From an uncultured Clostridia bacterium (GTDB lineage: Bacteria > Bacillota > Clostridia > Oscillospirales > Acutalibacteraceae), in the NCBI GenBank assembly GCA_946186665.1, contig CAMHOE010000008.1, positions 1-64,000 of the forward strand: 64,000 nt of DNA, read 5' to 3'. Of this stretch, positions 1 through 14,719 are shown piece after piece. The stretch's first letter is position 1. Every line of letters starts with the position of its first letter. The position numbers and the translations under genes were made by a program. The notes beneath the pieces were generated by a model, which was given only the letters and a program-made list of their open reading frames with translations, was not told where the DNA came from and searched no databases.

Positions 1-25
1 TGATCTCTATTTTTATATTTAATTA

Positions 26-139
26 CTATATCTTTTTGCAGTGTAGACCGCCATATTGAGTTATAATGATTTTGGCAAGCTTAGGATTTGTTTGTCTGAT
101 ATTTACAGGATATTGCAGTTTTTTCTCGTATACCCACAT
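26..139 (-). pseudogene. cotJC: CotJC (manganese-catalase-like spore coat protein), 5' fragment
   Basis: Directly after cotJB, an ATG with a strong ribosome site (AGGAGAGGTGAT) opens a reading frame starting MWVYEKKLQYPV and running to ITQYGG. This is the typical start of CotJC, the di-manganese catalase-like coat protein of the CotJ operon. After about residue 31 the match stops and the frame ends six codons later (LHCKKI, then TAG at 26-28). A full CotJC is about 190 residues. The rest of the family sequence is not downstream, but its C-terminal part lies on the other strand at 9757-10224. The terminal sequence AAAGATATA is also found at the 3' end of the serine recombinase gene at about 9.2 kb. 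Identity as a CotJC start is clear. Whether the break is decay or a regulated rearrangement is open. Confidence 0.85.
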
Positions 140-143
140 ATGA

Positions 144-395
144 TCACCTCTCCTGATTGTCCCACGGCCACGGATCAGAGATCCATGCCCATCTGTTGCC
201 GGATTCGTTCATTGGACTGAGAGGACCAAACTTTTCCTCAAACTCCCTGCGAAGGACAGCGCTCTTATCCTTATATGAAGCAAGGGCATCTGCCGCACTT
301 GTGTCATCAGGGTGAGTATCCAGATAAATATGCAGTTCAGTCACAGCAAAATCATAGGACGATAGTTTTTGCAGCATACGTTCACGTTCAGACAA
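144..395 (-). CDS. cotJB: Spore coat protein CotJB
   Basis: About 83 residues. The core (MLQKLSSYDFAVTELHIYLD, then THPDD, with a C-terminal GNRWAWISDPWPWDN stretch) matches the small CotJB family encoded between CotJA and CotJC in spore formers. I chose the TTG at 395, because AAGGAGGGG lies six bases upstream of it; an ATG at 428 is possible but has no ribosome site and would overlap cotJA more. The gene overlaps the end of cotJA by a few bases and is followed after four bases by the cotJC start, so the three are translationally linked. CotJ proteins belong to the inner spore coat. The precise function of CotJB is not known. Confidence 0.85.
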   Translation of the reverse strand: MSERERMLQKLSSYDFAVTELHIYLDTHPDDTSAADALASYKDKSAVLRREFEEKFGPLSPMNESGNRWAWISDPWPWDNQER

Positions 396-594
396 TCTTA
401 TCCCCTCCTTTATTACAATCCGGATCAAATGGTTTATTCAGCTCCGGAAACATGGTACCCGTTCGGATACCATGCTCCGGAGAGTATAGCTTACTTGCAT
501 TCTGAAACGGCACATAAGCCATCGCAACAACAGTGTCATCGGGCAATGGCTCAATAAAGAAAGCTGAGTTCTGAAGCTTCCTGATAACATCCAT
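388..594 (-). CDS. cotJA: Spore coat-associated protein CotJA
   Basis: A 68-residue protein with the CotJA hallmarks VAMAYVPFQ, then YSPEHGIRTGTMFPEL followed by NKPFDP. The ATG at 594 is preceded by AAGGAG at eight bases; an in-frame GTG nine bases upstream lacks such a site. It is the first gene of the leftward cotJABC operon. In Bacillus this operon is transcribed in the mother cell under sigma-E. I could not find a convincing sigma-E promoter upstream, so regulation here is inferred only from the family. Confidence 0.88.
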   Translation of the reverse strand: MDVIRKLQNSAFFIEPLPDDTVVAMAYVPFQNASKLYSPEHGIRTGTMFPELNKPFDPDCNKGGDKIV

Positions 595-700
595 AATAAA
601 CACTCCTTATGATACATTCCAATCAGCCTTTAATTATAGTTGACGACATAAAGCTTTGGTGATTTTATGACATCTCACACTTCTGTAAATTTGTAATTTT

Positions 701-746
701 GAATGTGGAAAGTGGAATGGCGGCAGGATTTTGCTGAAGCGAAAAC
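701..746 (+). repeat. Dispersed GTGGAA / TTTGCTGAAGCGAAAA repeat, copy 1
   Basis: The stretch begins GAATGTGGAAAGTGGAATGG and ends with TGCTGAAGCGAAAAC, which can form a short hairpin. Similar sequence occurs at 49797-49852 (opposite strand) and, less completely, at 54793-54846. It lies in the roughly 430-base gap between cotJA and the helicase promoter, in which I see nothing else definite. Confidence 0.55.
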
Positions 747-1028
747 CTATATAGTAAAACTTTTTTAAACTTATAATTTGATCTGAAGCTTTGGACTTTG
801 AATTATCTGACCACTTACCACTGACAATAAAATCAGGATAGGCTGATATTATCCTGTAGTTATATAATATGTCTGACATTTTTCATTGTTACAATACAGA
901 AAAAACGGCAGCTGATACAATAATGATAGTATGCATACAAGAGGCTACTGACAAATATTCTCGACAGTCCGACTCTGCAATAATTCTGTAACCGAATTTA
1001 CAGCAAAAGATCACGAACGTCTCGCCGG

Positions 1029-1058
1029 TTGACAAATGGGGTGAAAAAATGGTAGTAT
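1029..1058 (+). promoter_or_regulatory. Predicted sigma-A promoter of the helicase gene
   Basis: TTGACA (1029-1034) and TAGTAT (1053-1058) are separated by 18 bases. Transcription would start near 1065, which leaves too short a leader for the ATG at 1070 and supports the ATG at 1094 as the translation start. Confidence 0.65.
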
Positions 1059-1093
1059 AGTGGGGTGAGATGAAAAAAGAGAAGAGGTTTTTA

Positions 1094-2842
1094 ATGAAGG
1101 AAATCAGTATGAGATCGGGATTTGATGAGCTGATGCTCGATTCAAGAATAATGCGTGCGCTGGATGAAATGGGCTTTGAACAGCCTACCGAAATACAGGC
1201 ACAGTCCATACCGCTGATAAGAAATGGCGCAGATGTTATCGGACGCTCTCAGACCGGTACAGGTAAAACTATGGCATTCGCTATACCTGCAATAGAAAAA
1301 ATTGACGTAAACGAAAATAAACCAACTGTGCAGGTGCTTATTATGTGCCCTACACGTGAGCTTGCTCTTCAGTGCAGTGAGGAGATAAAAAAAGTTACTA
1401 AGTACATACATGGTATCCGGCCTGTAGAAGTTTACGGCGGCGCACCTATGGACAGACAGATAACAAGACTTAAACGTGCAAATATCGTTATAGGTACACC
1501 CGGCAGAATAATGGATCATATGAGACGCAGGACTTTAAAACTTGATAACGTCAAACTTGCGGTCCTTGATGAAGCAGATGAAATGCTCAGTATGGGCTTT
1601 AAAGAGGATATGGAAACTATCCTGCGTGATACTCCTGACAGCCGACAGACTGTACTTTTTTCTGCCACTATGCCGCCCTCAATAATGGCAATTACAGAAG
1701 AGTTCCAGCATGATCCTGAAATCGTTCAGGTCAGCAGAAAACAAGTGACACTGGATAATATCGTACAAAGCTATGTGGATGTTCCTATGGGACGCAAGTC
1801 CGATGCTCTGAAGCTTCTGCTGTATTATTATGAACCGTCACTTTCTATGGTTTTCTGCAATACCAAAAAAATGGCTGATGAGCTTACTGAAAGTCTTCGC
1901 AAAAGCGGTTTTAATGCCGATGCTTTACACGGCGATCTGAAACAGTCACAGCGCACAGCTGTAATGGATAAGTTCAGATGCGGGTCTACTTCAATTCTTG
2001 TTGCTACTGACGTTGCCGCAAGAGGAATCGATGTCAATGACGTTGAATATGTTTTCAACTACGATATACCGCAGAATAACGAATACTATGTTCACCGTAT
2101 AGGCAGAACCGGACGTATCGGAAAGAACGGAACGTCTGTGACTATATGCAGCGGCAGACGTCAGGTAGCAGAACTTACAGGTATTGTACGTGAACTGAAA
2201 TGCAGTATCAGTGAGATACCGGTTCCTACAAGCAGTGATATCAGAAGCCGTCAGAGTGAAAAAAATGCGGAAAGCGTTATATCTGTGCTTGAAAGCGACA
2301 AGGGCAGCTCCTACAATGATATGGTCAATCTCCTGCTTGAAAAGGGATACTCACTCTTTGATATAGCTTCTTCTGCGTTACAGATGAATTTCAGAAAACA
2401 GGAAATACAAATAGCCGATATAAAACAGGAACGCAAGAAATACGGCAAAAATGCCAATGTGGATTTCAGCAAGATAATTATTGATATAGGACGTTCAAGC
2501 CGTGCGGCGCCAAATCACCTTGTGGCTTCTATCACCGAAAGAAGCTCACTTCACGGCAGCGATATCGGAAAAATAGAAATATATGACGAATACTCTGTAG
2601 TGTCCGTTCCATCATCTTCCATAGAGGATGTTATAGACCGTATGTACGGAGCAAAGGTATGCGGACGTCCTGTAAAAACACGTCCATATTTAGACTCTCC
2701 GTCACGCCGTTCGTATAATAATTCTCACAGCTCTAAGCGTTCTTCCGCTAATAAACGCGGTTCAGACTCTAAACACTCTGCATACTCCAGCCGAAAACGA
2801 TCCTCCAGGCAGACTAATACTTCCACTCGCCGGCGCGGATGA
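1094..2842 (+). CDS. DEAD-box ATP-dependent RNA helicase, CsdA/DeaD type
   Basis: 582 residues. The N-terminal half has the complete helicase motif set: Q motif (GFEQPTEIQAQ), motif I SQTGTGKT (residues about 52-59), PTRELA, TPGR, DEAD (about 159-162), SAT, then ARGID and HRIGRTGR in the second RecA domain. Around residues 470-540 is a DbpA/CsdA-like RNA-binding domain (VASITERSSLHGSDIGKIEI onward). The tail is rich in Ser and Arg, as in DEAD proteins that bind structured RNA. The family unwinds RNA in ribosome assembly, mRNA decay and cold adaptation. I chose the ATG at 1094 because AGAGG lies five to six bases upstream; an ATG at 1070 would add eight residues. The exact subfamily (CshA or DeaD) cannot be fixed from sequence reading alone. 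Confidence 0.93.
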   Translation: MKEISMRSGFDELMLDSRIMRALDEMGFEQPTEIQAQSIPLIRNGADVIGRSQTGTGKTMAFAIPAIEKIDVNENKPTVQVLIMCPTRELALQCSEEIKKVTKYIHGIRPVEVYGGAPMDRQITRLKRANIVIGTPGRIMDHMRRRTLKLDNVKLAVLDEADEMLSMGFKEDMETILRDTPDSRQTVLFSATMPPSIMAITEEFQHDPEIVQVSRKQVTLDNIVQSYVDVPMGRKSDALKLLLYYYEPSLSMVFCNTKKMADELTESLRKSGFNADALHGDLKQSQRTAVMDKFRCGSTSILVATDVAARGIDVNDVEYVFNYDIPQNNEYYVHRIGRTGRIGKNGTSVTICSGRRQVAELTGIVRELKCSISEIPVPTSSDIRSRQSEKNAESVISVLESDKGSSYNDMVNLLLEKGYSLFDIASSALQMNFRKQEIQIADIKQERKKYGKNANVDFSKIIIDIGRSSRAAPNHLVASITERSSLHGSDIGKIEIYDEYSVVSVPSSSIEDVIDRMYGAKVCGRPVKTRPYLDSPSRRSYNNSHSSKRSSANKRGSDSKHSAYSSRKRSSRQTNTSTRRRG

Positions 2843-2876
2843 TAATTTTCGGATATATCTAAGGAGAGAATGAATA

Positions 2877-3569
2877 ATGAAAAAACTATTATGTGTATTA
2901 TTACTCTCTGCAACAGTATTACAGTTATGCGCCTGCTCAGGAAATACTGAACAGTCATCAGTAAGTGAAGCTCCAGTCGTCAGCTACTCGGACAGTGACG
3001 ACTCAGACAACAGTTCCAACCAGACTGACAGCTATGATGATCATTCTGCTGTTCTTTCCATAGTTTCAGAAGAAAGCTCTGTTTCTGATATTTCATACGA
3101 TACGAGCGAAGAAGACTATGAAAGCTCAGCTGAGATCAGACCTCCTGTCGGAGTGAGCATTGAGCCGGGCGGAAAATTCAAGTTCACCTCCAGTGTTCTG
3201 TCACTTTCCGTTACCTTCCCTGATGAGTTCTGTATAATCAATGATGACTATTCTCCCCAGTATGGGATATACCTGCAAAATACCTCAGGCACTGCTACGC
3301 TTCTCCTTGAAGCTGTTGAGGATGAGACTCTTACACATAGACAGTTAGCAGGATATCTGCGTTCGCAATATCCTGATTCTGAGGTATATATAACAGATAA
3401 AAAAGAAGTTCTCTGTCAGTTAGCGACCACAGACAAAAACGGGAATTCTGTATATGTTATGCAGAAATTCCAGACCAGATCAGGCGGCTACAATAAGATA
3501 GTGCTTTGCTGCAAGCCTGACGAAAAAAGCAAATACACACCTGTATTCAAAGATATAAGATTTTCATAA
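2877..3569 (+). CDS. Putative lipoprotein with Ser/Asp/Glu-rich linker
   Basis: 230 residues, not recognised as a named family. The first 20 residues form a signal peptide ending in a lipobox (QLCAC), so the protein should be anchored to the outer face of the membrane through Cys-20. Residues about 21-90 are a low-complexity acidic and Ser-rich linker. The remainder (from FKFTSSVLSLSVTFPDEF to the end) looks like a compact beta-rich domain. The start has AAGGAG at eight bases. It follows the helicase after 34 bases and precedes the thioesterase by 16 bases, so the three may be co-transcribed. Confidence 0.7.
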   Translation: MKKLLCVLLLSATVLQLCACSGNTEQSSVSEAPVVSYSDSDDSDNSSNQTDSYDDHSAVLSIVSEESSVSDISYDTSEEDYESSAEIRPPVGVSIEPGGKFKFTSSVLSLSVTFPDEFCIINDDYSPQYGIYLQNTSGTATLLLEAVEDETLTHRQLAGYLRSQYPDSEVYITDKKEVLCQLATTDKNGNSVYVMQKFQTRSGGYNKIVLCCKPDEKSKYTPVFKDIRFS

Positions 3570-3585
3570 AAGGAGCATAAGTAAA

Positions 3586-3990
3586 ATGGGAAAATTTTCA
3601 AGCCTGAAAGAAGCGCAGGATTTTTTTGTAAAAGACAGATTCGCTACCGTCAACGGTATGAGAATTGATGAACTGAATGACAACACCTGCGTTTGCAGTG
3701 TGGATATAACAGACGATCACCGCAACGCTATAGGCGGCGTTATGGGCGGCGTTATCTTTACACTTGCAGATCTGACCTTTGCAGCAGCTTCCAATAATGC
3801 GCATTTCCCCACTGTTGCTCTGGATGTAAACATCCATTTTCTGAGCAGCACAAAAGGCAGCAAGCTTACAGCAAGATCGGAATGTATAAAAAACGGCAGA
3901 ACAACAAGTGTTTATAATATCACCATAACCGATGATACCGGACGTGATGTTGCTATGTTTATCGGCACAGGCTATAAACTGCAAAATTAA
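3586..3990 (+). CDS. PaaI-family hotdog-fold thioesterase
   Basis: 134 residues, the usual size of a single hotdog domain. The segment HRNAIGGVMGGVIFTLADL is the typical helix region of PaaI/YdiI-like acyl-CoA thioesterases, with the Asp of LADL in the expected catalytic position, followed by strands (VALDVNIHFL, SECIKNGRTTSVYNI). The family hydrolyses acyl-CoA thioesters; the substrate cannot be told from the sequence. Ribosome site AAAAGGAG precedes the ATG. A hairpin terminator follows at 4095. Confidence 0.85.
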   Translation: MGKFSSLKEAQDFFVKDRFATVNGMRIDELNDNTCVCSVDITDDHRNAIGGVMGGVIFTLADLTFAAASNNAHFPTVALDVNIHFLSSTKGSKLTARSECIKNGRTTSVYNITITDDTGRDVAMFIGTGYKLQN

Positions 3991-4000
3991 TATTAAACAA

Positions 4001-4044
4001 GTTTTCGAACCCCAAAGGCACTTCCTGCGGGCGCCTGCGAAAAC
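4001..4044 (+). repeat. Dispersed repeat with GTTTTCG/CGAAAAC ends
   Basis: The ends GTTTTCG (4001-4007) and CGAAAAC (4038-4044) pair. Read on the minus strand, the inside (GCGCCCGCAGGAAGTGCC, then TTTGGGGTTCGAA) is nearly the same as segments of the tandem repeat at 45643-45674 and 45791-45822. It is short, non-coding and of unknown role. Confidence 0.55.
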
Positions 4045-4094
4045 TTACCGCCATTATTCATTTTTAAGTTTTAAGTATTCATTAAAACAATAAG

Positions 4095-4145
4095 GCTCCC
4101 CGTACTTTATGTATGAAACAAAACTTGGGTACGGGGAGCTTGTTA
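4095..4145. terminator. Bidirectional hairpin terminator between thioesterase and rluD
   Basis: GCTCCCCGTAC (4095-4105) pairs perfectly with GTACGGGGAGC (4129-4139), followed on the plus strand by TTGTTATTATTC. It sits between two convergent genes. The 22 bases just before the stem (from about 4073) resemble those before the hairpin at 30205. Confidence 0.75.
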
Positions 4146-5069
4146 TTATTCTATTGTTTTAATAAAATCAGTAAAGTATTCAGGCAAAGGAGATGACAGC
4201 GTGATCGTCTCTCCAGTACGAGGATGCACAAATGAAATATAGTACGCATGGAGACATTGCCCACCAAGCTTTACAAGATATTTCTTTCCGCCGTAGACCG
4301 GATCACCTGCAACAGGATGTCCTATGTATGACATATGCACCCTTATCTGATGTGTACGGCCTGTTGTGAGGGTCAGTTCAACATGAGTGTATCCCTTGAA
4401 ACGGTTCAGTACTTTATAATGGGTTATTGCTTCTTTGGAGTTTTTCATTGTTACTGCCATTTTCTTGCGTTCTGTGGGGTGACGGCCTATAGGAGCGTTG
4501 ATAGTCCCCTCTTCATTCTTTATGATGCCGCAGACTATTGCCTGATATTTTCTTGTAAAGCTGTGTTCCTTTATCTGTTCTGCAAGAAGTCTGTGGGAAA
4601 AATCATTCTTTGCAACTATCAGCAGACCGCTTGTGTCCTTATCTATCCTGTGCACTATTCCGGGACGCATTACACCGTTTATACCGGACAAGGAACTTCC
4701 GCAATGGTAAAGCAGTGCATTGACAAGTGTGCCGCTGTAATTGCCCGCCGCAGGATGGACTACCATTCCTCTTGGTTTGTTGACTACAAGAAGGTCATCA
4801 TCTTCATATGGAATATCAAGCGGGATATTCTCAGCAGCTGCTTCATATTCAACCGGCTCAGGAACCTCAACACAAATGCTGTCGCCTGAACATAGTTTAT
4901 AATTTTTATTGGCAGGCTTTCCGTTAACGGTAACACGAGCTTCAGCAATAAGCTTTTGCAGCGCCGAACGTGTAAGATCATCGTCTTTTTCTGCAAGGTA
5001 TTTATCTATGCGAACTCCCATATACTCTTCGCTGACCGAAAAAATCTTATTTTGCATCATGCTCACCAT
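4146..5069 (-). CDS. rluD: 23S rRNA pseudouridine synthase, RluD family
   Basis: About 307 residues. An N-terminal S4 RNA-binding domain (VRIDKYLAE to VNGKPANKNYKL) is followed by the catalytic domain with the HRIDKDTSGLL motif, whose Asp is the nucleophile of the RluA/RluD family, and RTHQIRVHMSYIGHPVAGD. RluD makes pseudouridines in helix 69 of 23S rRNA; paralogues modify other sites, so the exact target is inferred. I chose the ATG at 5069, nine bases after AGAGG; ATGs at 5060 and 5111 are alternatives. It overlaps the end of lspA by 23 bases, the common lspA-rluD arrangement of Firmicutes. Confidence 0.9.
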   Translation of the reverse strand: MVSMMQNKIFSVSEEYMGVRIDKYLAEKDDDLTRSALQKLIAEARVTVNGKPANKNYKLCSGDSICVEVPEPVEYEAAAENIPLDIPYEDDDLLVVNKPRGMVVHPAAGNYSGTLVNALLYHCGSSLSGINGVMRPGIVHRIDKDTSGLLIVAKNDFSHRLLAEQIKEHSFTRKYQAIVCGIIKNEEGTINAPIGRHPTERKKMAVTMKNSKEAITHYKVLNRFKGYTHVELTLTTGRTHQIRVHMSYIGHPVAGDPVYGGKKYLVKLGGQCLHAYYISFVHPRTGETITLSSPLPEYFTDFIKTIE

Positions 5070-5616
5070 CGGAAATTTCCTCTGACTGTTCTTCTGCACT
5101 GTCAGTTTCATTATCTGTTATCTCTTCCCCATTTTCAGAAGCTGCTGACGGTTCTGTTTTATCTGATGTGTTATCTTTTGTCTGCATAAACAGTACGATA
5201 ACAAAAAGCACAGCACCTATTGTAATACAGTAGTCCGCAAAATTGCACACAGGCGGAAAGAACGAAACGGAAAGATAATCTACAACATATTGTCTGAATA
5301 TTCTGTCGATAAGATTGCCGATACCTCCGCCTATCATGAGTACAGCAGAAGCAGCAAAAAGAGGCCCTGTAAACTTTTTTTTGACTATAAGATATATAAA
5401 AACTGATATCAGCAGGGCAGTAATAATTGCAAAGACAATAACATGGTCCTGAAACATTCCGAATGCAACGCCGCGATTTTCCACATAAATAAGAGAAAGC
5501 AGACCATCTATCACGCTTGCGCTTTTCACAGGCTTGAGATATTCAACTATAAAATATTTTATCAGCTGATCTATTCCCGCAACGACCGCAGACAAGCCCA
5601 ATATCACACCTAACAT
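5047..5616 (-). CDS. lspA: Lipoprotein signal peptidase (signal peptidase II)
   Basis: 189 residues with four membrane segments. The conserved motifs are visible: DQLIKYF, VENRGVAFGMF, GGGIGNLIDRI with the first catalytic Asp, and CNFADYCI with the second. LspA cleaves prolipoproteins before the lipid-modified Cys, and this window encodes several such lipoproteins. I chose the ATG at 5616 because GAGG precedes it by five to six bases; a longer frame upstream has no ribosome site. Beyond the last membrane segment is an unusual acidic, probably disordered tail of about 40 residues ending EHDAK. Confidence 0.93.
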   Translation of the reverse strand: MLGVILGLSAVVAGIDQLIKYFIVEYLKPVKSASVIDGLLSLIYVENRGVAFGMFQDHVIVFAIITALLISVFIYLIVKKKFTGPLFAASAVLMIGGGIGNLIDRIFRQYVVDYLSVSFFPPVCNFADYCITIGAVLFVIVLFMQTKDNTSDKTEPSAASENGEEITDNETDSAEEQSEEISDGEHDAK

Positions 5617-5704
5617 ATTATCCTCATTCCTTTCACAATTTCTAAATAAAGCACATTCATTATACAATACTTTCATCTCACTGTCAACGGCGGCGGGTGA
5701 CTCC

Positions 5705-5931
5705 GCACACGTCAATCTAATTCAGACATCAAAATGATACAAAGTTTAATAAGATGTCATTTTGAGCGTTAAGCGAATAATCTTTGAGTGACTTATGCAC
5801 ACTTTACTATGCCTGTCAGGTTTAATTAATTAGAAAAAACGCACTTTAAGCCCTTTCGGCAAGCTCAAGAAAGAAGGTTGATTCTGAAAAGTAACAAAAT
5901 AATTTCCAAATTAGATTGACGTGTGTGCAGG
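5705..5931. repeat. MITE-like element with 17-bp terminal inverted repeats
   Basis: CACACGTCAATCTAATT near 5706-5722 is matched by its reverse complement AATTAGATTGACGTGTG near 5912-5928, about 190 bases apart. The inside carries no ORF. The 3' neighbour GCAGGCTCTGCGC also occurs in the 148-bp tandem repeats at 45.7 and 45.8 kb. The size and ends fit a small non-autonomous element, but no target duplication was identified. Confidence 0.5.
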
Positions 5932-6003
5932 CTCTGCGCGGCTTGAAGTGTTGGGAGAAATGTGGTAGAATAGGTATTATTAAAATAAATGGAGGTAAAT
6001 TGT

Positions 6004-7380
6004 ATGAAAAATACAGAAAAAACTATGGAAAAAATCGTTGCCCTCTGTAAGGGCAGAGGTTTTGTTTATCCCGGCTCTGAAATATATGGAGGCCTTGCTA
6101 ATACATGGGACTACGGTCCTCTGGGTATGGCTTTGAAAAATAATATCAAGTCGGCTTGGCTGAAAAAATTCGTACAGGAAAATAAGTATAACGTGGGTCT
6201 TGATGCGGCTATCCTCATGAACCCTCAGACTTGGGTGGCATCCGGTCATCTTGGCGGTTTCTCTGACCCCCTAATGGATTGTAAGGAGTGTAAGACAAGA
6301 CACCGTGCGGATAACCTTATCGAGGACTTTGACGGTACAAATGTTGCAGGCTGGTCAAATGAGCAGATGATGGACTATATCAAAGAAAAGGCTATCCCCT
6401 GCCCTGACTGCGGTAAGCATAACTTTACAGATATCCGTCAGTTCAACCTTATGTTCAAGACTTTTCAGGGCGTTACTGAGGACAGTAAAAATGAACTCTA
6501 TCTTCGTCCCGAAACAGCTCAGGGTATCTTTGTAAACTTCGCTAACATACAGAGAACAAGCCGTAAAAAAGTTCCCTTCGGTGTTGCTCAGATCGGTAAG
6601 TCATTCAGAAATGAGATCACACCCGGTAACTTTATTTTCCGTGTACGTGAGTTTGAGCAGATGGAGCTTGAATTCTTCTGCAAGCCCGGCACTGACCTTG
6701 AGTGGTTCGAGTACTGGAGAGGCTTCTGCCGTGACTGGCTGTACTCTCTGAACATAAAAGAAGAAAATCTCAGACTCCGTGATCATGATCCTGAGGAGCT
6801 GTGCTTCTATTCAAAGGCAACTACAGACTTTGAGTATCTCTTCCCCTTCGGCTGGGGCGAGCTCTGGGGCGTTGCAGACAGAACAGACTACGACCTTACT
6901 CAGCATATCAATACAAGCGGTAAGGCACTTGAATACTTCGATCCTCAGACAAACGAAAAATATGTTCCTTATGTTATCGAGCCGTCACTTGGTGTTGAAC
7001 GTCTTTTCCTTGCGATAATGGTAGAAGCTTATGACGAGGAACAGCTTGATGAAAAGGACAGCAGAGTTGTTCTGCACCTTCATCCTGCACTGGCACCATT
7101 TAAGGCGGCTGTACTTCCTCTTTCCAAAAAGCTTGCTGATAAGGCTGATGAAGTTTATACAATGCTCTCCAAGAACTTCATGGTAGAGTATGATGATGCT
7201 GGTTCTATCGGTAAACGCTACCGTCGTCAGGACGAGATCGGTACCCCCTTCTGCATTACCTACGATTTTGACAGCGTTGAGGATGGATGTGTGACCGTTC
7301 GTGATCGTGATACAATGGCTCAGGAAAGAGTTGCTATTGATAAGCTTGTTGACTATCTCAACGAAAAAATAGCTTTCTGA
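6004..7380 (+). CDS. glyQS: Glycyl-tRNA synthetase, single-chain class II type
   Basis: 458 residues, the dimeric (single-polypeptide) GlyRS. The signature begins [15 protein letters not shown] and continues with the tryptophan-rich WDYGPLG. A Cys-rich insertion (CKEC and CPDC) fits a zinc knuckle. The class II motifs [22 protein letters not shown] and EPSLGVERL, and the C-terminal anticodon-binding domain (from [12 protein letters not shown]), are all present. It charges tRNA-Gly. The ATG at 6004 is preceded by GGAGG at eight bases; an ATG at 5989 is upstream of this ribosome site. The short leader holds no recognisable T-box. A strong terminator follows. Confidence 0.96.
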
Positions 7381-7416
7381 TACTTATAAATAAAACAGAA
7401 CATGCAACTTGTTGAT

Positions 7417-7453
7417 AAAAACCGCTAAGCACTATGTTTAGCGGTTTTTTGTA
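7417..7453 (+). terminator. Intrinsic terminator of glyQS
   Basis: ACCGCTAA (7421-7428) pairs with TTTAGCGGT (7437-7445), followed by a T run. The 200 bases from here to the recombinase start show no clear gene. Confidence 0.8.
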
Positions 7454-7652
7454 TATTTTTTAAATGTGTCGGATATATTGCGCTCCGGTCGTTCAATTAC
7501 TTTTATAGCTCTGAAGTCTTATGTTCCGGAGGCTGCGTCACTGTTAAACAATATCGGACAGTTGATAATGATAAAATGATTGTATGAATATATGTTTTCA
7601 TCGTTGCTTTGATATAACGACAGATATGATCATCAGAAAGGTGCTGAAAACA

Positions 7653-9218
7653 GTGTCATACTGTATTTACCTCAGAAAATCAAGAGCTGATGCAGAAGCT
7701 GAGCTGCGCGGTGAGGGTGAAACTCTTGCACGACACGAAAAAGCCCTGACTGCTTTTGCTGAACATTCAGGGCTTAAAGTCACAGCTATATATAAAGAGA
7801 TAATCAGCGGCGAAACGATTGCTGCCCGACCTCAGATGCAGCGGCTGTTATCTGAGGTCAGTGAAGGACTGTGGGATGGCGTTATCGTTATGGATGTTGA
7901 CCGTCTTGCTCGCGGCAACAGTATAGATCAGGGCATTATATCTCAGACCTTTCTATACGCTGGAACAAAGATAATCACGCCTGCAAAAACATATGATCCT
8001 GCCAATGAGTTTGACGAAGAATATTTCGAGTTCGGGTTGTTCATGAGCAGACGAGAATATAAAACCATAAACAGACGTTTGCAGCGTGGAAGAATAGCGA
8101 GTGTAAAGGAAGGCAAGTATATCAGTAATAAAACTCCCTTTGGCTATGAAAGGGTGAAGCTCCTGAACGACAAAGGTTATACCCTCTCTCCTGTTCCTGA
8201 GCAGGCGCAGGTAGTAAAAAGCATTTTTGAATGGTACACAGACGGTAAGCTTCAGGAAGATGGAACACGCCGCCGGATAGGTGTATCTCTTATTGCAAGA
8301 GAACTTAACGAGAGAAAAATATCCACAAGAGATGGCGGTGTATGGACAGCGCCCACAATACGTGATATGCTTATAAATCCGGTTTATATCGGAAAAATAC
8401 GTTGGAACTGGCGTCCGCAGAAAAAGAAGATGATAAACGGCAGTATTGTAACTGAACGTCCAAGAAGCTCTGATTGTCAGATATTTGACGGTATTCATGA
8501 AGCGATAATTGATGAAGAGACATTTAACACTGCACAGGCATTCATGAGCAAAAACAGCAACCGCCCAATAAGGGGGGACAAAAAAACTCAGAACCCCTTA
8601 GCAAGTCTTGTAGTGTGCGGATCCTGCGGAAGAAAAATGCAGCGTCGTCCAAACCCCAAAAATCCGGATATGCTCATTTGTGCCGAACCCAATTGCAGTA
8701 ATCACGCATCATACATTTATCTGGTAGAGCAGCGTGTACTGGAATGCCTTAGAAAATGGTCAGACGAGTTTGAGATAACAATAAATAGTAATGATAAGAT
8801 CGCCGTTACAAACACTGATGAACAAAGAGCCGAGCTTTCAGCGGTTGTAAAGAGTGAAGAAAAAGTAAACTCTCAGCTTGACAAAGCATTTGAAGCTTTT
8901 GAGACAGGTATCTATGATGCGGAAACATTCAGACACAGAAGCGATATCCTCAGGCAGCAGCTCCGGGAGCTGTCAGCTAAAAAGACCGAGCTTCAAAAAA
9001 GCATTGACAAGGCAGAAGAAAACGAGAGAGTAGTAAAAGCGTTCATACCAAAAGTCAGGAAAGTAACTGCCATATATAACGATCTTTCAGATCCTCAGGT
9101 AAGGAATGATATGCTGAAGGAGGTAATTCATCATATTGAGTACGTCAAAGAGACACGTGGACACGGTCATGAGGAAGAGTTTTCCATAACTCTTTTTCCA
9201 AAGCTTCCAAAGATATAA
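7653..9218 (+). CDS. Large serine recombinase (site-specific integrase/invertase)
   Basis: About 521 residues. The N-terminal resolvase domain carries the catalytic Ser in YLRKSRAD and the Arg in DRLARG. It is followed by a recombinase domain (TPFGYERV to IGKIRWNW), a zinc ribbon (CGSCG and CAEPNC, residues about 325-350) and a C-terminal coiled coil of about 100 residues. This is the architecture of phage-type integrases and of SpoIVCA, which excises skin from sigK during sporulation. I chose GTG at 7653, preceded by AGAAAGGTG and matching the usual start just before YCIYLRKS; the frame is open from 7584. No excisionase or phage gene is nearby. Its 3' end is repeated at 9691-9756, directly against the cotJC fragment. 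Base use is not obviously foreign. Confidence 0.9.
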   Translation: MSYCIYLRKSRADAEAELRGEGETLARHEKALTAFAEHSGLKVTAIYKEIISGETIAARPQMQRLLSEVSEGLWDGVIVMDVDRLARGNSIDQGIISQTFLYAGTKIITPAKTYDPANEFDEEYFEFGLFMSRREYKTINRRLQRGRIASVKEGKYISNKTPFGYERVKLLNDKGYTLSPVPEQAQVVKSIFEWYTDGKLQEDGTRRRIGVSLIARELNERKISTRDGGVWTAPTIRDMLINPVYIGKIRWNWRPQKKKMINGSIVTERPRSSDCQIFDGIHEAIIDEETFNTAQAFMSKNSNRPIRGDKKTQNPLASLVVCGSCGRKMQRRPNPKNPDMLICAEPNCSNHASYIYLVEQRVLECLRKWSDEFEITINSNDKIAVTNTDEQRAELSAVVKSEEKVNSQLDKAFEAFETGIYDAETFRHRSDILRQQLRELSAKKTELQKSIDKAEENERVVKAFIPKVRKVTAIYNDLSDPQVRNDMLKEVIHHIEYVKETRGHGHEEEFSITLFPKLPKI

Positions 9219-9412
9219 GAATGACTTATATACTATGAAAATAAAATCGGATTGTAGAGGATTTTGCTATTGACTTAGAACGTTTTGTATAAAGTCATCA
9301 TTAAGTTTCAGGTTATACTTTTCAAAATGATAGATTTCGGATTCATATCTATACACTTATACTCTGTACTCAGCAAGCTTGCTACTGTCGCTGATGGGCT
9401 GTATACTTGAGT

Positions 9413-9589
9413 TCATGGCTCCTCCTGCTCACGGCGCATATGCTCTTTTTTCAGATAGTCCCGGAATGCTATTTCTCCGCAGTTTCTGCGAATTTGTTCC
9501 AGTTCTTCCTTCGTTTTTACAACCCAACTGTCATCGATATAATCTATACCTTTTCCGAGTCCGTGATCAATGGTCATTACTATTGCCAT
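9413..9589 (-). CDS. Small hypothetical protein (58 aa)
   Basis: Starts MAIVMTIDHGLGKGIDYIDD and ends in a charged helix (KEHMRREQEEP). AAAGGAGC precedes the ATG at 9589 by six to seven bases, a good ribosome site for such a short frame. It has no membrane segment and no motif I recognise. It lies between the serine recombinase and the second copy of the recombinase 3' end, so it is probably cargo of, or an accessory to, the same element. Confidence 0.55.
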   Translation of the reverse strand: MAIVMTIDHGLGKGIDYIDDSWVVKTKEELEQIRRNCGEIAFRDYLKKEHMRREQEEP

Positions 9590-9690
9590 ATTAACAGCTC
9601 CTTTCAATCATTTGTATGTACGTCTGGCGCGTTTTAGGCACTGTATATTTTGGCGAAAATGAAGAGGACGCTATGAAATGTGCAACGGAT

Positions 9691-9756
9691 ACGGTCATGA
9701 TAAAGAGTTTTCCATAACTCTTTTTCCAAATCTTCCAAATATATAAGAATGACTGA
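9691..9756 (+). repeat. Degraded second copy of the recombinase 3' end
   Basis: ACGGTCATGATAAAGAGTTT, then TCCATAACTCTTTTTCCAAA and TCTTCCAAATATATAAGAAT match 9163-9225 (the last codons and stop of the recombinase) with a few changes, at an offset of about 528 bases. The copy stops exactly where cotJC sequence starts. This suggests a recombinase element once ended here, with its integrase 3' end at the attachment site. Confidence 0.75.
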
Positions 9757-10224
9757 TATCTTACTGGTACAGAAGAATTGGGACATCTGGAAATGGTGGG
9801 GACAATAGTATATCAGCTCACAAGGAACCTGAGTATGGAGGAAATCGAGAAGTCAGGCTTCGGAGATTATTTCGTTGACCATACAACGGGAATATATCCT
9901 GTATCAGCAAGCGGTACTCCGTTTTCAGCGTCTGCACTACAGGTGAAGGGGGATATTATCACAGATCTTCATGAAGATTTAAGTGCCGAACAAAAAGCTC
10001 GTACGACTTATGATAACATACTGAGATTTTGTGACGACCCCGATGTCAAGGATGCCATCAGGTTCCTGCGCGCAAGAGAAGTTGTGCATTATCAAAGATT
10101 CGGCGAGGCACTGCGGTTAGTGACAGATAAACTGGACAGCAGGAATTTCTATGATTTTAATCCGGAATTTGATAAATGCAGGGTTAAGGAAAACAAAAAC
10201 AGCAAAAGCAATACAAAAAAATAA
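9757..10224 (+). pseudogene. cotJC: CotJC (manganese-catalase-like spore coat protein), C-terminal fragment
   Basis: From GTEELGHLEMVGTIVYQLTR onward the frame follows the CotJC/manganese catalase family, including YFVDHTTGIYP, DLHEDLSAEQKARTTYDNIL, a His/Glu-containing REVVHYQRFGEAL segment and the ending FYDFNPEFDK, plus a Lys/Asn tail. A TGA lies just upstream (9754-9756). The only start within the frame is a TTG at 9778 without a ribosome site, so as it stands this is probably not translated. Together with the 5' fragment at 26-139 it gives most of a CotJC, lacking roughly 25-30 residues between QYGG and GTEEL. The two pieces are on opposite strands 9.6 kb apart. Confidence 0.85.
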
Positions 10225-10408
10225 TCTATCACATGGCAGGGATTTGCGCTTAACGTATACCCCTGCCATTATATTTAACTACAGACTTGTGGAAAATGTT
10301 CTGCTAAATTATCTGATACAAATACCCACTCTTGAGTCTTTTGAACAATTATCTTGTATGTATTTCAGAACGCTACAAAATTTAACATCAAATGTCAAGT
10401 GCAGTTGG

Positions 10409-10437
10409 TTGAAACATGTAAAATCATGATGTATAAT
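10409..10437 (+). promoter_or_regulatory. Predicted sigma-A promoter of the XRE-ABC operon
   Basis: TTGAAA (10409-10414) and a perfect TATAAT (10432-10437) with 17-base spacing. The spacer holds an imperfect palindrome ACATG-taaaat-CATGATGT, a possible operator for the regulator encoded directly downstream. Confidence 0.75.
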
Positions 10438-10461
10438 TATAACTGTAAGGAGGTCGATACC

Positions 10462-10899
10462 ATGAGTGAATACCTGAGAAAGATCAGACAACAAGCCAAA
10501 ATGACACAGGAAGAGCTTGCTCAGATGATGAATGTATCAAGACAGTCGGTGGCAAAATGGGAAAGCGGAGATAGCGTTCCTGATGTGTTAAAATGCAGCG
10601 AGCTTGCTAAAATTTTTGACATCAGTATAGAGGATGTCGTTCTGATGTTCATGAACAAGGATGAAATATTGGATTATAAACCTAAAAGAAAGTTCATTTT
10701 CGGAAAATGTGTAATAGATGATAACAAGATAGTTATTCCGGATGAAGCAATGGAAGTGTTCGGATTAAAAAACGGAAGCGAGCTTGTATTGCTGGGAGAC
10801 TTGCAGCAGGGACTAGCGATGGTTCCTCTTGAAAGTATAAATGATTTTATGAAGGCATTTAACGAAGCACCTACATATGGAGGGGAAAACAACGTATGA
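10462..10899 (+). CDS. XRE-family transcriptional regulator with AbrB/SpoVT-like C-terminal domain
   Basis: 145 residues. Residues 1-60 are a helix-turn-helix (TQEELAQMMNVSRQSVAKWE). After a linker, the segment VIDDNKIVIPDEAMEVFGLK, then NGSELVLLGD, resembles the swapped-hairpin AbrB/SpoVT fold. The ATG at 10462 has AAGGAGG at eight bases. It overlaps the ABC ATPase gene by four bases, so it most likely senses a signal that controls this exporter and, given the operator-like palindrome in its promoter, itself. The ligand is unknown. Confidence 0.85.
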   Translation: MSEYLRKIRQQAKMTQEELAQMMNVSRQSVAKWESGDSVPDVLKCSELAKIFDISIEDVVLMFMNKDEILDYKPKRKFIFGKCVIDDNKIVIPDEAMEVFGLKNGSELVLLGDLQQGLAMVPLESINDFMKAFNEAPTYGGENNV

Positions 10900-11627
10900 A
10901 AACGATAATCAAAACCACAGATCTGACGAAAAAGTTCGGTACAAAAACCGCTGTAGACAAGCTTAATCTGGAGATATTCGAGGGTGAGATCTTCGGGCTG
11001 CTGGGTGTTAACGGAGCAGGAAAAACAACAACTATCCGTATGCTTACTGGTCTTTCCGCTGTGACCGACGGAGATGCTCATATTATGGATTACAGCATAA
11101 AAAAGGATCTTCAGGAAATAAAGAGACTGACAAATATTTCTCCGCAGGAAACTGCTGTTGCGGGTAACCTTACTGTCAAAGAAAACCTTGACTTTATGGG
11201 AAAGATATACGGCATGAACAAGGAAGATACCAAAAAGAATATTGAGAAGCTATTCAAATCTCTGGAGCTTGAGGAGGTTCAGAACCAAAAAGCAAAAACA
11301 CTTTCCGGAGGCTGGCAGAGACGTCTTAGTATTGCAATGGCGCTTATAACCGACCCGAATATAATCTTTCTGGATGAACCTACTTTGGGTCTGGATGTCC
11401 TTGCAAGAAGAGAGCTTTGGAAAATAATCAGCTCACTTAAAGTCAAGGTAACGGTAATACTTACAACACATTATCTTGACGAAGTAGAAGCACTTTGCGA
11501 CAGGATCGCAATAATGGCAAAGGGCAATCTGAAAGCACTCGGCACAGCTGAGGAACTGAAAAAGAAAGCAGGCAAGGAAAAATTAGAGGACTCTTTTGTA
11601 GAAATCGTAGGAGGCGCAGAAGAATGA
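10896..11627 (+). CDS. ABC exporter ATP-binding protein
   Basis: 243 residues with a full nucleotide-binding domain: Walker A GVNGAGKTTT, Q-loop (NISPQET), signature LSGGWQRR (Trp where many have Gln), Walker B IIFLDEPTLGLD and the switch His in TTHYLDE. The length and C-terminal region are those of the CcmA/NatA-like drug and peptide exporters. It works with the ABC-2 permease that overlaps its 3' end by four bases. Substrate unknown; antimicrobial or multidrug export is a guess from family. Confidence 0.93.
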   Translation: MKTIIKTTDLTKKFGTKTAVDKLNLEIFEGEIFGLLGVNGAGKTTTIRMLTGLSAVTDGDAHIMDYSIKKDLQEIKRLTNISPQETAVAGNLTVKENLDFMGKIYGMNKEDTKKNIEKLFKSLELEEVQNQKAKTLSGGWQRRLSIAMALITDPNIIFLDEPTLGLDVLARRELWKIISSLKVKVTVILTTHYLDEVEALCDRIAIMAKGNLKALGTAEELKKKAGKEKLEDSFVEIVGGAEE

Positions 11628-12427
11628 GATCAATGACATTTGCATCAAGAAATATTAAAGAGCTTTTAAGAGATCCCCTGAGTTATGTATTCTGTCTGGC
11701 ATTTCCGATAGTAATGCTCATAGTAATGACCATAGTAAATTCAGCGATACCGGAAAATCCGATACCTGAAGGATTGCCAATAGACGACAGTGCCGTCATG
11801 GTGCCGACTGTCTTTCAGATAGCAAAGCTCACACCGGCAATAGCAATATTCGGTATGACGTTCATAATGCTGTTTACGTGTATGAGAGTTTCATCTGACC
11901 GTGCAGGTGCTTTTCTTACAAGACTGTATGCGTCACCTATGAAGGGTACGGATTATGTACTTGGCTATATTTTCCCCTTTGCGCTGATCGCCTTTGCCCA
12001 GATCGTAATAACGTATATCGCAGGCGATATCATAGCTGTAGTTGACAGCAAGGATACCTTCAACGTTCTTAATATGCTGATATCAATTCCGCTTTTTATT
12101 CCGTCTGTTCTGTTATTTATCGGCACAGGAATACTCTTCGGAGTTCTGTTCAATGACAAGGCTGCTCCGGGTGTTTGCTCTGCTGTAATTACAGGTGCTG
12201 CACTGCTGGGCGGTATTTGGATGGATGTTGACCAGATGGGTGGAGTATGGCTCTCAATATGCGATAAGCTTCCCTTCTACTATTGCGTAAGAGCTGCTCG
12301 TTTTGCTTTGGCAGGTGATTTTCAGGAAATGCTCTTCCCCCTTCTCATTAGCAGCGCATATGCAGCAGCAATATTTATTATATCAATTATAGCTTTTGTC
12401 AAAAAAATGAAGAGCGATAAGAAATAA
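11624..12427 (+). CDS. ABC-2 type transporter permease
   Basis: 267 residues with six predicted membrane segments and the ABC-2 arrangement: a short cytoplasmic start (SRNIKELLRDPLSYVFCLAF), a first membrane segment, an extracellular loop (about residues 35-60), then five more segments. The frame overlaps the ATPase gene, forming a two-component exporter. A terminator follows nine bases after the stop. Confidence 0.88.
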   Translation: MRSMTFASRNIKELLRDPLSYVFCLAFPIVMLIVMTIVNSAIPENPIPEGLPIDDSAVMVPTVFQIAKLTPAIAIFGMTFIMLFTCMRVSSDRAGAFLTRLYASPMKGTDYVLGYIFPFALIAFAQIVITYIAGDIIAVVDSKDTFNVLNMLISIPLFIPSVLLFIGTGILFGVLFNDKAAPGVCSAVITGAALLGGIWMDVDQMGGVWLSICDKLPFYYCVRAARFALAGDFQEMLFPLLISSAYAAAIFIISIIAFVKKMKSDKK

Positions 12428-12670: not shown

Positions 12671-13330
12671 TCAATATTTTTCAGAGTAGTGGTGCGCTTT
12701 TTCAAGAAGCATATCCTTGACCTTCATGAGTCGTGTACGGCTGCTTCTGTCGTTTTCTTCAAGCTTCATGGCAATGTACTTGATGGTGTCCTCGTAACGG
12801 GGGATCATAACGTGCTCCAGAGAATTAACTCTGCGGCGTGTGCGCTCTATTTCAGCTGCCATTAGCTCACAGCTTTTTTCTGTTTCAGCAAGCTTTATCA
12901 GATCCGGCATGAGGTCGTTCAGAGATGTCACAGCATCATCAAGCTCAAAGGATGTGAAGGCAAAGCCGTAAGGGAATATATCGCCCTTCTCCGGACTCTG
13001 GTCAACAGACGAGAAAACCGGCACATCAACACTCATGATGTTTCGGGAGGTTACTTCTACACCTGTCTGCTGCTTGGAGGACATAAGTGAGGAGTCAAGA
13101 GCTTTCTTGCTCATAACGGCACTTGCATTTACAAAGTGTGAACTACAAACCTTCAGCTCTGCTTCTATCTTTTCACGAAGCTTTTTGTTCTCCTGAACAA
13201 GCTCTATAAACTGACGCATAAGCTCGTCACGCTTGTCTTTAAGCATTTTATGTCCCCTCTTTGCGGTGACAAGCTGCTTTTTGAGCTTTGTCATCTGCAT
13301 ACGGGTGGGGTTTACATTCATTATGTCCAT
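12671..13330 (-). CDS. ntpD: V-type ATP synthase subunit D
   Basis: 219 residues, last gene of the operon. It starts NVNPTRMQMTKLKKQLVTAK, the standard D-subunit start, and consists of long coiled-coil helices at both ends. D forms the central rotor shaft inside the A3B3 head. The first ATG (13330) has AAGGAG at eight bases. Confidence 0.93.
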   Translation of the reverse strand: MDIMNVNPTRMQMTKLKKQLVTAKRGHKMLKDKRDELMRQFIELVQENKKLREKIEAELKVCSSHFVNASAVMSKKALDSSLMSSKQQTGVEVTSRNIMSVDVPVFSSVDQSPEKGDIFPYGFAFTSFELDDAVTSLNDLMPDLIKLAETEKSCELMAAEIERTRRRVNSLEHVMIPRYEDTIKYIAMKLEENDRSSRTRLMKVKDMLLEKAHHYSEKY

Positions 13331-13348
13331 TTCAATGCTCCTTGCAGA

Positions 13349-14719
13349 TCACTTGCCGTAGTATTTGTCAAGCATATCATCCTTGATTCTCTTCAGCTCG
13401 CTTCGGGGAAGAATGTGAAGGAGTCTCCAGCCTGTATCAAAAGTATCCTCTATGGTACGGTTGGTGGTATAGCCTTGTGACACATATTCCTTTTCAAAGG
13501 CTTCGGCAAATTCGGCGTATTTTTTGTCGATATCAGTAAGAGCTGCTTCACCCAGTACTATCATCAGTTCTCTTGCGTCCTTGCCTCTTGCATATGCGGA
13601 GAAGAGCTGGTTCATGGTTGCAGCGTGATCCTCTCTGGTACGACCCTCGCCTATTCCCTTGTCTTTAAGACGGGAAAGCGACGGAAGAACGTCTATGGGA
13701 GGTGTTATGCCCTTTCTGTAAAGCTCACGGCTGAGGATGATCTGTCCCTCAGTGATATAACCTGTAAGGTCCGGTATGGGATGAGTCTTATCATCTTCGG
13801 GCATTGTAAGGATTGGTATAAGTGTGATGGAACCGTCCTTGCCCTTTTGTCTGCCGGCTCTTTCATAAAGAGTTGCAAGGTTTGTATACATATATCCGGG
13901 ATAGCCTCTTCTGCCGGGAACTTCCTTACGTGCGGCTGATACCTCACGGAGAGCATCGGCATAGTTGGTGATATCAGTCATGATAACAAGAACGTGCATA
14001 CCAAGATCAAATGCAAGATATTCAGCGGCAGTAAGAGCCATTCGGGGTGTTGCGATACGTTCGATAGCAGGGTCGTTTGCAAGGTTTACAAACATCACCG
14101 TTCTGTCGATAGCACCAGTCTCACGGAAGGACTGTACAAAAAAGTCCGACTCCTCATAGGTTATACCCATAGCTGCAAATACAACGGCGAACTGCTCGTC
14201 CTTGCCGCGTACGGCTGCCTGACGTGCGATCTGTGCCGCAAGCTGTGCATGAGGCAGACCTGAAGCTGAGAATATGGGAAGCTTCTGTCCGCGCACAAGT
14301 GTGTTCAGTCCGTCTATGGCAGATACGCCTGTCTGGATGAACTCCTGCGGATAGTCACGGGCAGCGGGGTTCATGGGGGTGCCGTTGATGTCAAGACGTT
14401 TTTCAGGGATAATTGCAGGACCGTCATCTATGGGGTTTCCCAGTCCGTCAAATACTCGTGACAGCATATCGCCGGAAACCGGAAGCTCCATCGACTTTCC
14501 GAGAAAACGCACCTTGGAGCCTGCAAGATTGATGCCGGCAGCTGAATCGAACAGCTGTACAAGGGCATTTGAACCGTCTACCTCAAGTACCTGACAGCGG
14601 CGTATCTCGCCGTTTGGCAGCTCGATTTCACCCAGCTCGTTGTAGGTCACGCCGTCAACATCGCTTATCATCATAAGAGGACCTGCGACCTCTCTTATTG
14701 TACGGTATTCCTTAGGCAT
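13349..14719 (-). CDS. ntpB: V-type ATP synthase subunit B
   Basis: 456 residues, normal for the non-catalytic B subunit. It starts [20 protein letters not shown], has the B-type region [19 protein letters not shown] in place of a complete Walker A, and retains [20 protein letters not shown]. It alternates with subunit A in the hexameric head. The start codon overlaps the ntpA stop (ATGA), indicating translational coupling. Confidence 0.96.

Follow-up and report, generated by a model that had tools for sequence, protein, structure and literature searches.

Why does a spore coat gene lie in two pieces on opposite strands of one contig, and could it still be made whole? The question is raised by cotJC, at the left end of a 64,000-nucleotide stretch (hereafter the window) of contig C8 from the draft genome of an uncultured Clostridia bacterium. 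The leftward operon cotJA-cotJB-cotJC' (603-47) breaks off after codon 31 of cotJC, and the gene resumes rightward at codon 62, behind deaD, a lipoprotein gene, a thioesterase gene, rluD, lspA, glyS, a serine integrase gene of full length and a stretch of about 550 bp with element scraps (Table 1; the names of the genes between the pieces were read from translations, and the thioesterase is also a Pfam match). The split is confirmed: the pieces agree with the earlier note on this DNA, which described two opposite-strand pieces with a serine recombinase near one break, and the 25-30 or so codons that it found missing are by alignment exactly 30 (codons 32-61). As shown by the junctions described below, two unrelated large serine integrases entered cotJC at codons 31 and 61, giving three pieces. 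We consider it probable that these two insertions were followed by a later rearrangement or a misassembly, and that skin-like excision rebuilds the gene.

Three integrase traces are present in the window, namely a full gene, a C-terminal copy, and six codons plus the stop of a gene from another family. According to these traces and the adjoining attachment (att) sequences, the two breaks are att halves of two different serine-integrase elements. Each half has an inverted-repeat arm and, next to it, a core in common with cotJC. At the left break, the six codons resemble the C-termini of five A-type integrases beside the corresponding site in relatives (IEIYLDV, DIDIFFYT, IEIFFYA twice, and TEIFLSA, each followed by the stop), and their spacing to the att arm is similar as well. 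About 0.5 kb upstream of the right break lies the full B-type integrase, which matches the Pfam models Resolvase, Recombinase and Zn_ribbon_recom and a PHROG integrase model, and which is 61-71% identical to 10 B-type integrases, nine of them ending no more than 35 bp from a site-B break in cotJC and one 1.6 kb off. A degraded B-type prophage end, possibly two in tandem, would thus adjoin the cotJC 3' piece. Terminase, portal, capsid and tail genes of a tailed prophage were not found in the window, which holds a phage scrap only; the contig that this scrap resembles (G000:C84, L462; 5.2 kb) belongs to the same draft and is a phage contig with a minor head protein.

The opposite strands of the two pieces, together with a full serine integrase beside one break, would fit a programmed inversion switch, in which recombination between the breaks flips the intervening 9.6 kb and rebuilds cotJC. 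We regard such a switch as very improbable, since the att halves at the two breaks differ in type, no pair of inverted repeats (at least 16 nucleotides, window 1-10300) links 1-60 to 9740-9780, and 30 codons would remain missing after the flip. In addition, all 10 same-contig pairs of pieces tested elsewhere lie on one strand, and such pairs call for excision. The simple inversion switch considered in the earlier note was therefore not upheld, and a single inverted element was rejected because of the different att types and the lack of linking inverted repeats.

Relatives show how often cotJC is broken in this way. Full-length CotJC was searched against 64 genomes of the genus; 48, whose pieces were fetched with flanks, make up the tally, and the 16 outside it comprise eight with CotJC matches (G034 intact) and eight without a credible match. 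Across the 64 genomes, the broken ends cluster at four sites, A to D. Among the 48, cotJC is intact in eight, broken at one or more of the four sites inside a contig in 37, and ends only at contig edges in three. Site A (codon 31) was found from its 5' side in 15 genomes and from its 3' side in nine, site B (codon 61) in 10 and 10, site C (about codon 134) in three and five, and site D (about codon 178) in seven and 13. One of the five 3' cases at site C, G012, is a mis-extended match; the CotJC search places its piece at codon 163 and hence at site D, so that G012 would be a further two-site genome. As scored, cotJC is cut at two or three sites in 13 of the 48 genomes (AB in G000, G006 and G064; ABD in G075 and G004; AD in four genomes; BD in two; AC and BC in one each). 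More than one recombinase element targeting cotJC, which the earlier note had proposed as a possibility, is thus borne out by the two att types at the window's breaks and by the recurrent sites in relatives.

The same holds for the third piece that it expected beyond the window. A lone piece between sites A and B (about 41-44 aligned codons), corresponding to the one missing from the window, is present in G004, G006, G064 and G075. In G004 and G064 it stands between an A-type and a B-type integrase (the B-type ORF of G004 is shortened, and that of G064 lies 1.6 kb off), while its only neighbour on the contig is A-type in G006 and B-type in G075. On a single contig, locus L226 (3106-11818) holds three cotJC pieces that all share a strand (codons 1-31, 26-65 and 51-136), the last of which stops near site C. 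Overlapping pieces also occur within the single drafts G004 and G015 (L125-L130), where mixed strains with and without the element, or two gene copies, are possible.

CotJC aligns with manganese catalases, and E35 of 1jku corresponds to codon 35, just past site A. Sites B, C and D are in or beside other conserved stretches (gteelgh, aaeqkar and hyqrfge), which we take to hold metal ligands. By targeting the least changeable DNA of cotJC, the integrases would, we infer, keep a broad host range.

The middle piece was sought in the window's own genome (G000), a draft of 2.55 Mb in 101 contigs that is 94% complete. A 200-residue CotJC query returned both window pieces and one weak match (expectation value 0.13), and nothing else, while a pattern for the missing piece allowing up to two mismatches gave no match. 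The draft being 94% complete, absence of the middle piece is unproven. Base 1 of the window is base 1 of contig C8, and the left break is 46 bases from this assembly edge. Searches of the own genome also found neither a site-A 3' junction nor an A-type integrase, and an exact search of viral contigs with the first 26 window bases was unproductive. The integrases of G000:C65 and C21 were considered as the missing A-type gene and rejected, both being nearest to C-type at about 30% identity.

The opposite strands reflect rearrangement or misassembly. The cotJC 3' piece may have come to stand behind glyS through misassembly or strain mixing, in which case the actual order would be collinear (cotJC 5' piece, A element, middle piece, B element, cotJC 3' piece). 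This appears somewhat unlikely. In its favour, the window begins at a contig end, the order cotJ-deaD-...-glyS-integrase is unseen in the relatives checked, and the draft lacks the middle piece and the A-type integrase. However, there is no obvious repeat to misjoin, because the own genome contains no other strong copy of the DNA where glyS and the integrase meet, and the 73-nucleotide repeat of the integrase end lies to the right of this junction. Gene order gave no ancestral orientation. The neighbours of cotJ, deaD and glyS vary among the relatives checked, with two partial exceptions: the block deaD-lipoprotein-rluD-lspA is retained in G060, and in G072 a distance of 7.5 kb separates deaD from the cotJC 3' piece, from which it points away. 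The latter lends weak support to deaD having originally stood upstream of cotJ. A chromosomal inversion ending in the degraded B element would fit, as would a misjoin. After such an inversion, the B half-sites would stand in inverse order and the integrase would invert rather than excise; an inversion restoring cotJC in this strain is possible.

The reading of two insertions by unrelated integrases is in agreement with the integrases beside cotJC in relatives. In the cotJC loci, 36 integrases (open reading frames, ORFs, of at least 150 amino acids) matched two seed integrases, and those adjacent to cotJC sort by site; most end less than 50 bp from the break, with exceptions at 159-4648 bp. Identity is 52-99% within families and 19-30% between them (alignments of at least 200 residues), and each cotJC site has an integrase family of its own, four families in all. 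The 3' end of the integrase generally faces cotJC, and either gene piece can be abutted. Complete, unintegrated 42-bp palindromic phage attachment (attP) sites lie behind the A-type integrases of five viral contigs (L331, L332, L333, L342 and L343), and attP-like palindromes, recognized by eye, behind the B-type integrases of three (L251, L263 and L270). The attP core in viral contigs runs in either direction relative to the integrase gene, which is why the integrase may abut either cotJC piece.

Among the 80 best matches to B-type integrases in named genomes, 57 have a cotJC piece at -60 to +300 bp relative to their end, and two have no room for one. In viral contigs, the integrase stands beside a cotJC piece in 14 of 80 B-type, 21 of 80 A-type, five of 28 C-type and two of four D-type cases. 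Some carriers are isolates, among them Alkaliphilus transvaalensis (ATCC 700919), Caproiciproducens galactitolivorans (BS-1) and Tissierella praeacuta; in the first two, a broken cotJC adjoins a B-type integrase. Where a single contig holds both cotJC ends, the element measures from 3.2 kb (L212) to 9.1 kb (L334), with a further one of 38 kb at site A in G030, which encodes terminase, portal, major head and tape measure proteins, as a tailed prophage does. Genes of other kinds are found in the small elements, for instance for a response regulator or a helicase-like protein (read from translations), and among three proteins tested from L251 were tail and lysis proteins. As shown by this survey, cotJC in the relatives serves as an integration hub with four att sites, occupied by tailed prophages and by small elements of 3-9 kb.

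In ten collinear pieces that add up to about 15.5 kb, the nucleotide sequences of L251 (B-type, attP-B) and L331 (A-type, attP-A) are 78-93% identical. The integrase-attP stretch (10003-11667 in L251, 10009-11579 in L331) forms one gap between these pieces and is flanked on either side by DNA that is 91-92% identical; further gaps exist, the largest at 7753-9879 of L251. With the integrase-attP modules swapped in this way, the same kind of phage can use either cotJC site, and these sister phages suggest competition for, or partition of, sites within one gene.

Are the pieces kept in a state that allows rejoining, or is cotJC a dead scar, broken by mobile elements and now a decaying pseudogene here and in relatives? 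The integrase remnant, the degraded phage DNA and the missing piece speak for a scar. On the other hand, no stops occur in the four scored codon stretches, apart from the mis-extended G012 match, and the integrase at 7653-9218 is full length. The ratio of nonsynonymous to synonymous differences (pN/pS) is also similar in split and intact genes, being 0.197 in 22 not-intact genomes and 0.193 in the eight intact ones for codons 62-130, 0.101 (32 genomes) and 0.140 for codons 1-29, 0.110 (24 genomes, a group that includes genes split elsewhere) and 0.088 for codons 33-58, and 0.133 (25 genomes) and 0.102 for codons 138-174. Thus the stops, frameshifts and relaxed constraint of a decayed pseudogene were not found in the pieces, with synonymous differences (pS) near saturation, and we judge a dead scar unlikely. 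When pieces from other genomes were joined at the core, the expected frame resulted in 16 of 29 pairs; the core patterns used were strict, and several cores differ by one base. The sporulation gene spoIVA is present in 59 of the 64 genomes, the own genome included, and spore formation in the genus is likely.

Beside the B-type integrases there is also a family of small ORFs (135 matches in the loci retrieved, a number that includes repeat entries for the same locus), which often diverge from the integrase and are placed as a directionality factor might be. Examples are found at L200:8506-8685, in L192 and in L263, and part of the family has a conserved ATAGGACAAA box before the gene. The small ORFs tested had no fitting Pfam or PHROG model, and no small partner ORF common to the A-type elements was evident. 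Upstream of the small partner genes, TAGGACAA occurs in 20 of 109 cases, compared with four of 1959 control genes from these loci. GGACAA is found in 27 upstreams, and in 21 of them its distance to the start is 41-54 bases. After collapsing similar upstreams, the integrase abuts a cotJC piece in 16 of 18 cases with TAGGACAA and in 29 of 87 without it (Fisher p = 2.7e-5, uncorrected for relatedness); this association weakens to p = 0.00044, likewise uncorrected, when only loci with 150 bp beyond the integrase are taken. CATANNNT is found upstream of the small ORF in 45 of 108 cases versus 13.4 in shuffles, and it has no link to cotJC adjacency (p = 1). No clear excess of strict sigma-E or sigma-K patterns was seen before the small ORF (one of 112 versus 0.7, and six of 112 versus 2.6, respectively), and a sigma-70 promoter scan of window 7300-10400 stayed at shuffle level (nine versus 7.9). 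We take TAGGACAA to be of the sigma-E/SpoIIID type according to Bacillus consensus sequences. By analogy with CD1234 of the skin element of Clostridioides difficile, this hints that TAGGACAA may be a mother-cell promoter with a SpoIIID-like box (PMC5025042). The C. difficile SpoIIID consensus given there, KRTAACARK, agrees with TAGGACAA only in part (PMC5025042).

Taken together, an A-type element entered cotJC at codon 31 and a B-type element at codon 61, leaving the gene in three pieces. Pieces one and three are those in the window, and the 30-codon middle would lie beyond the contig end or have been lost from the draft. A later rearrangement (or misassembly), with its ends in the degraded site-B element and behind glyS, would then have flipped piece three. 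In the mother cell, the integrase and a small partner protein may excise the element, as happens with skin and SP-beta; reassembly of cotJC in this manner is likely. The mother-cell genome is not inherited, so excision there would restore cotJC in time for coat formation, and several elements in one gene could be tolerated by the host. For the strain of the window, full repair would need excision at A and inversion at B, and in this form, with the middle piece lying off the contig, an inversion switch is possible. A bolder version regards cotJC as a gene in movable pieces, with two or three unrelated integrases rebuilding three or four parts in one mother cell and one of the steps here being an inversion; to this we attach little probability.

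Several observations weigh against two insertions repaired by excision. The middle piece, the site-A 3' junction and the A-type integrase are all unfound in the own draft, and the integrase that directly adjoins the cotJC 3' piece is a remnant. With pS near saturation, the constraint on the pieces may predate the splits, and kept codon constraint therefore supports function without proving it. No in-frame join was obtained for 11 of the 29 piece pairs, and two gave a shortened frame. Among the 80 best-matching B-type integrases in named genomes, 21 are not beside cotJC, nor are most of the viral ones. Seven Ruminococcus upstreams of the small gene were inspected, the window's included, and lack TAGGACAA; the window's small ORF has a CATACAAAT stretch instead, so that the hint of developmental control does not carry over directly. 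Finally, the proximity of deaD to the cotJC 3' piece in G072 indicates that the neighbourhood is not wholly new in the own genome.

Directly 3' of the cotJC 3' piece, at 10354-12427, are a helix-turn-helix (HTH) regulator and a pair of ATP-binding cassette (ABC) transporter genes; beyond them, at 12671-16485, V-type ATPase genes run leftward (most of these names were read from translations). Beside cotJ, deaD or glyS in relatives, the HTH and ABC genes gave weak matches only, at no more than 38% identity.

Table 1. Parts of the split cotJC gene and element-derived features in the window
Feature	Position	Strand	Basis
A-type large serine integrase end (DLYFYI and stop; last 6 codons + stop), truncated by contig start	2..22	+	likeness to five A-type C-termini
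Putative site A half att site: attP arm TATATCTTTTTGCA, then core GACCGCC (GGCGGTC on the cotJC strand)	27..52		same arm type at relatives' site-A breaks
cotJC 5' piece, codons 1-31	47..139	-	alignment to CotJC
cotJB	144..428	-	ORF; tblastn match adjoining cotJC in relatives
cotJA	388..603	-	ORF; tblastn match adjoining cotJB in relatives
Full-length B-type large serine integrase	7653..9218	+	ORF from 7584; match to L251 homologue starts 7654
Phage DNA scrap	9229..9328	.	80% identity to part of G000:C84 (contig with phage minor head protein)
Small ORF of the family accompanying B-type integrases; candidate recombination directionality factor	9413..9589	-	family membership
C-terminal remnant of a second B-type integrase gene	9687..9746	+	in 73-nucleotide direct repeat of 9159-9231, 92% identical
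Putative site B half att site: arm ACTGATATCTTA, then core GGTACAGAAGAA	9752..9777		same kind of arm at relatives' site-B breaks
cotJC 3' piece, codons 62 to stop (codons 62-199 at 9766-10179)	9766..10224	+	alignment to CotJC

In partial coverage of the literature, a split cotJC is unreported in the titles and abstracts of the matches listed, and the abstract of the paper on regulated gene integrity reportedly does not include cotJC. Published work names sigK, spsM, spoVFB, gerE and yabG as split sporulation genes (PMC10747680, PMC5595907). The skin element of sigK, known from Bacillus subtilis and C. difficile, is a large serine recombinase element in a mother-cell sporulation gene, and its att half-sites have inverted repeats (PMC5025042). 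The window resembles it in having foreign element DNA in a sporulation gene and a large serine recombinase near an att site; its pieces do not lie on one strand around a single element. SP-beta in spsM, vfbin in spoVFB and yin in yabG (PMC10747680), and gin in gerE (PMC5595907), are similar in that a prophage or non-phage element splits a sporulation gene that is rebuilt by excision. They differ, as far as these sources describe them, in having one site and one element per gene, and none is in cotJC.

Phage phi027 of C. difficile adjoins a CotJC-like gene (cotG, CDR20291_1465) and is described as lying beside this gene, not as splitting it (PMC11222575, PMC12122855). Curing of phi027 lowered the share of sporulating cells in one of two studies (PMC12122855, PMC11222575). 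Distantly related serine integrases are known to share one target gene, as described for a magnesium chelatase/protease and a prolyl isomerase (PMC10083194); neither "catalase" nor "spore" occurs in the main text of that paper. The prolyl isomerase has a single conserved site, whereas cotJC, a short sporulation gene, has four separate ones (PMC10083194).

The present comparison yields four serine integrase families with predicted attB (bacterial attachment) and attP sequences, together with cultured carriers. If the pieces are rejoined, phages would gain a landing site that is cheap for the host, with only the doomed mother cell needing cotJC, and one cell must coordinate several unrelated site-specific recombinases for one protein. 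Unlike sigK in the skin system, cotJC is a coat gene and not a sigma factor gene, it has four insertion points with four integrase families, phages use these sites, and several sites can be filled together. The known split sporulation genes that excision rebuilds involve a single element each. The 600 bp of cotJC, in rumen-type Ruminococcus and in wider Clostridia, carry four integration sites, each with its own integrase family and often two or three of them filled.

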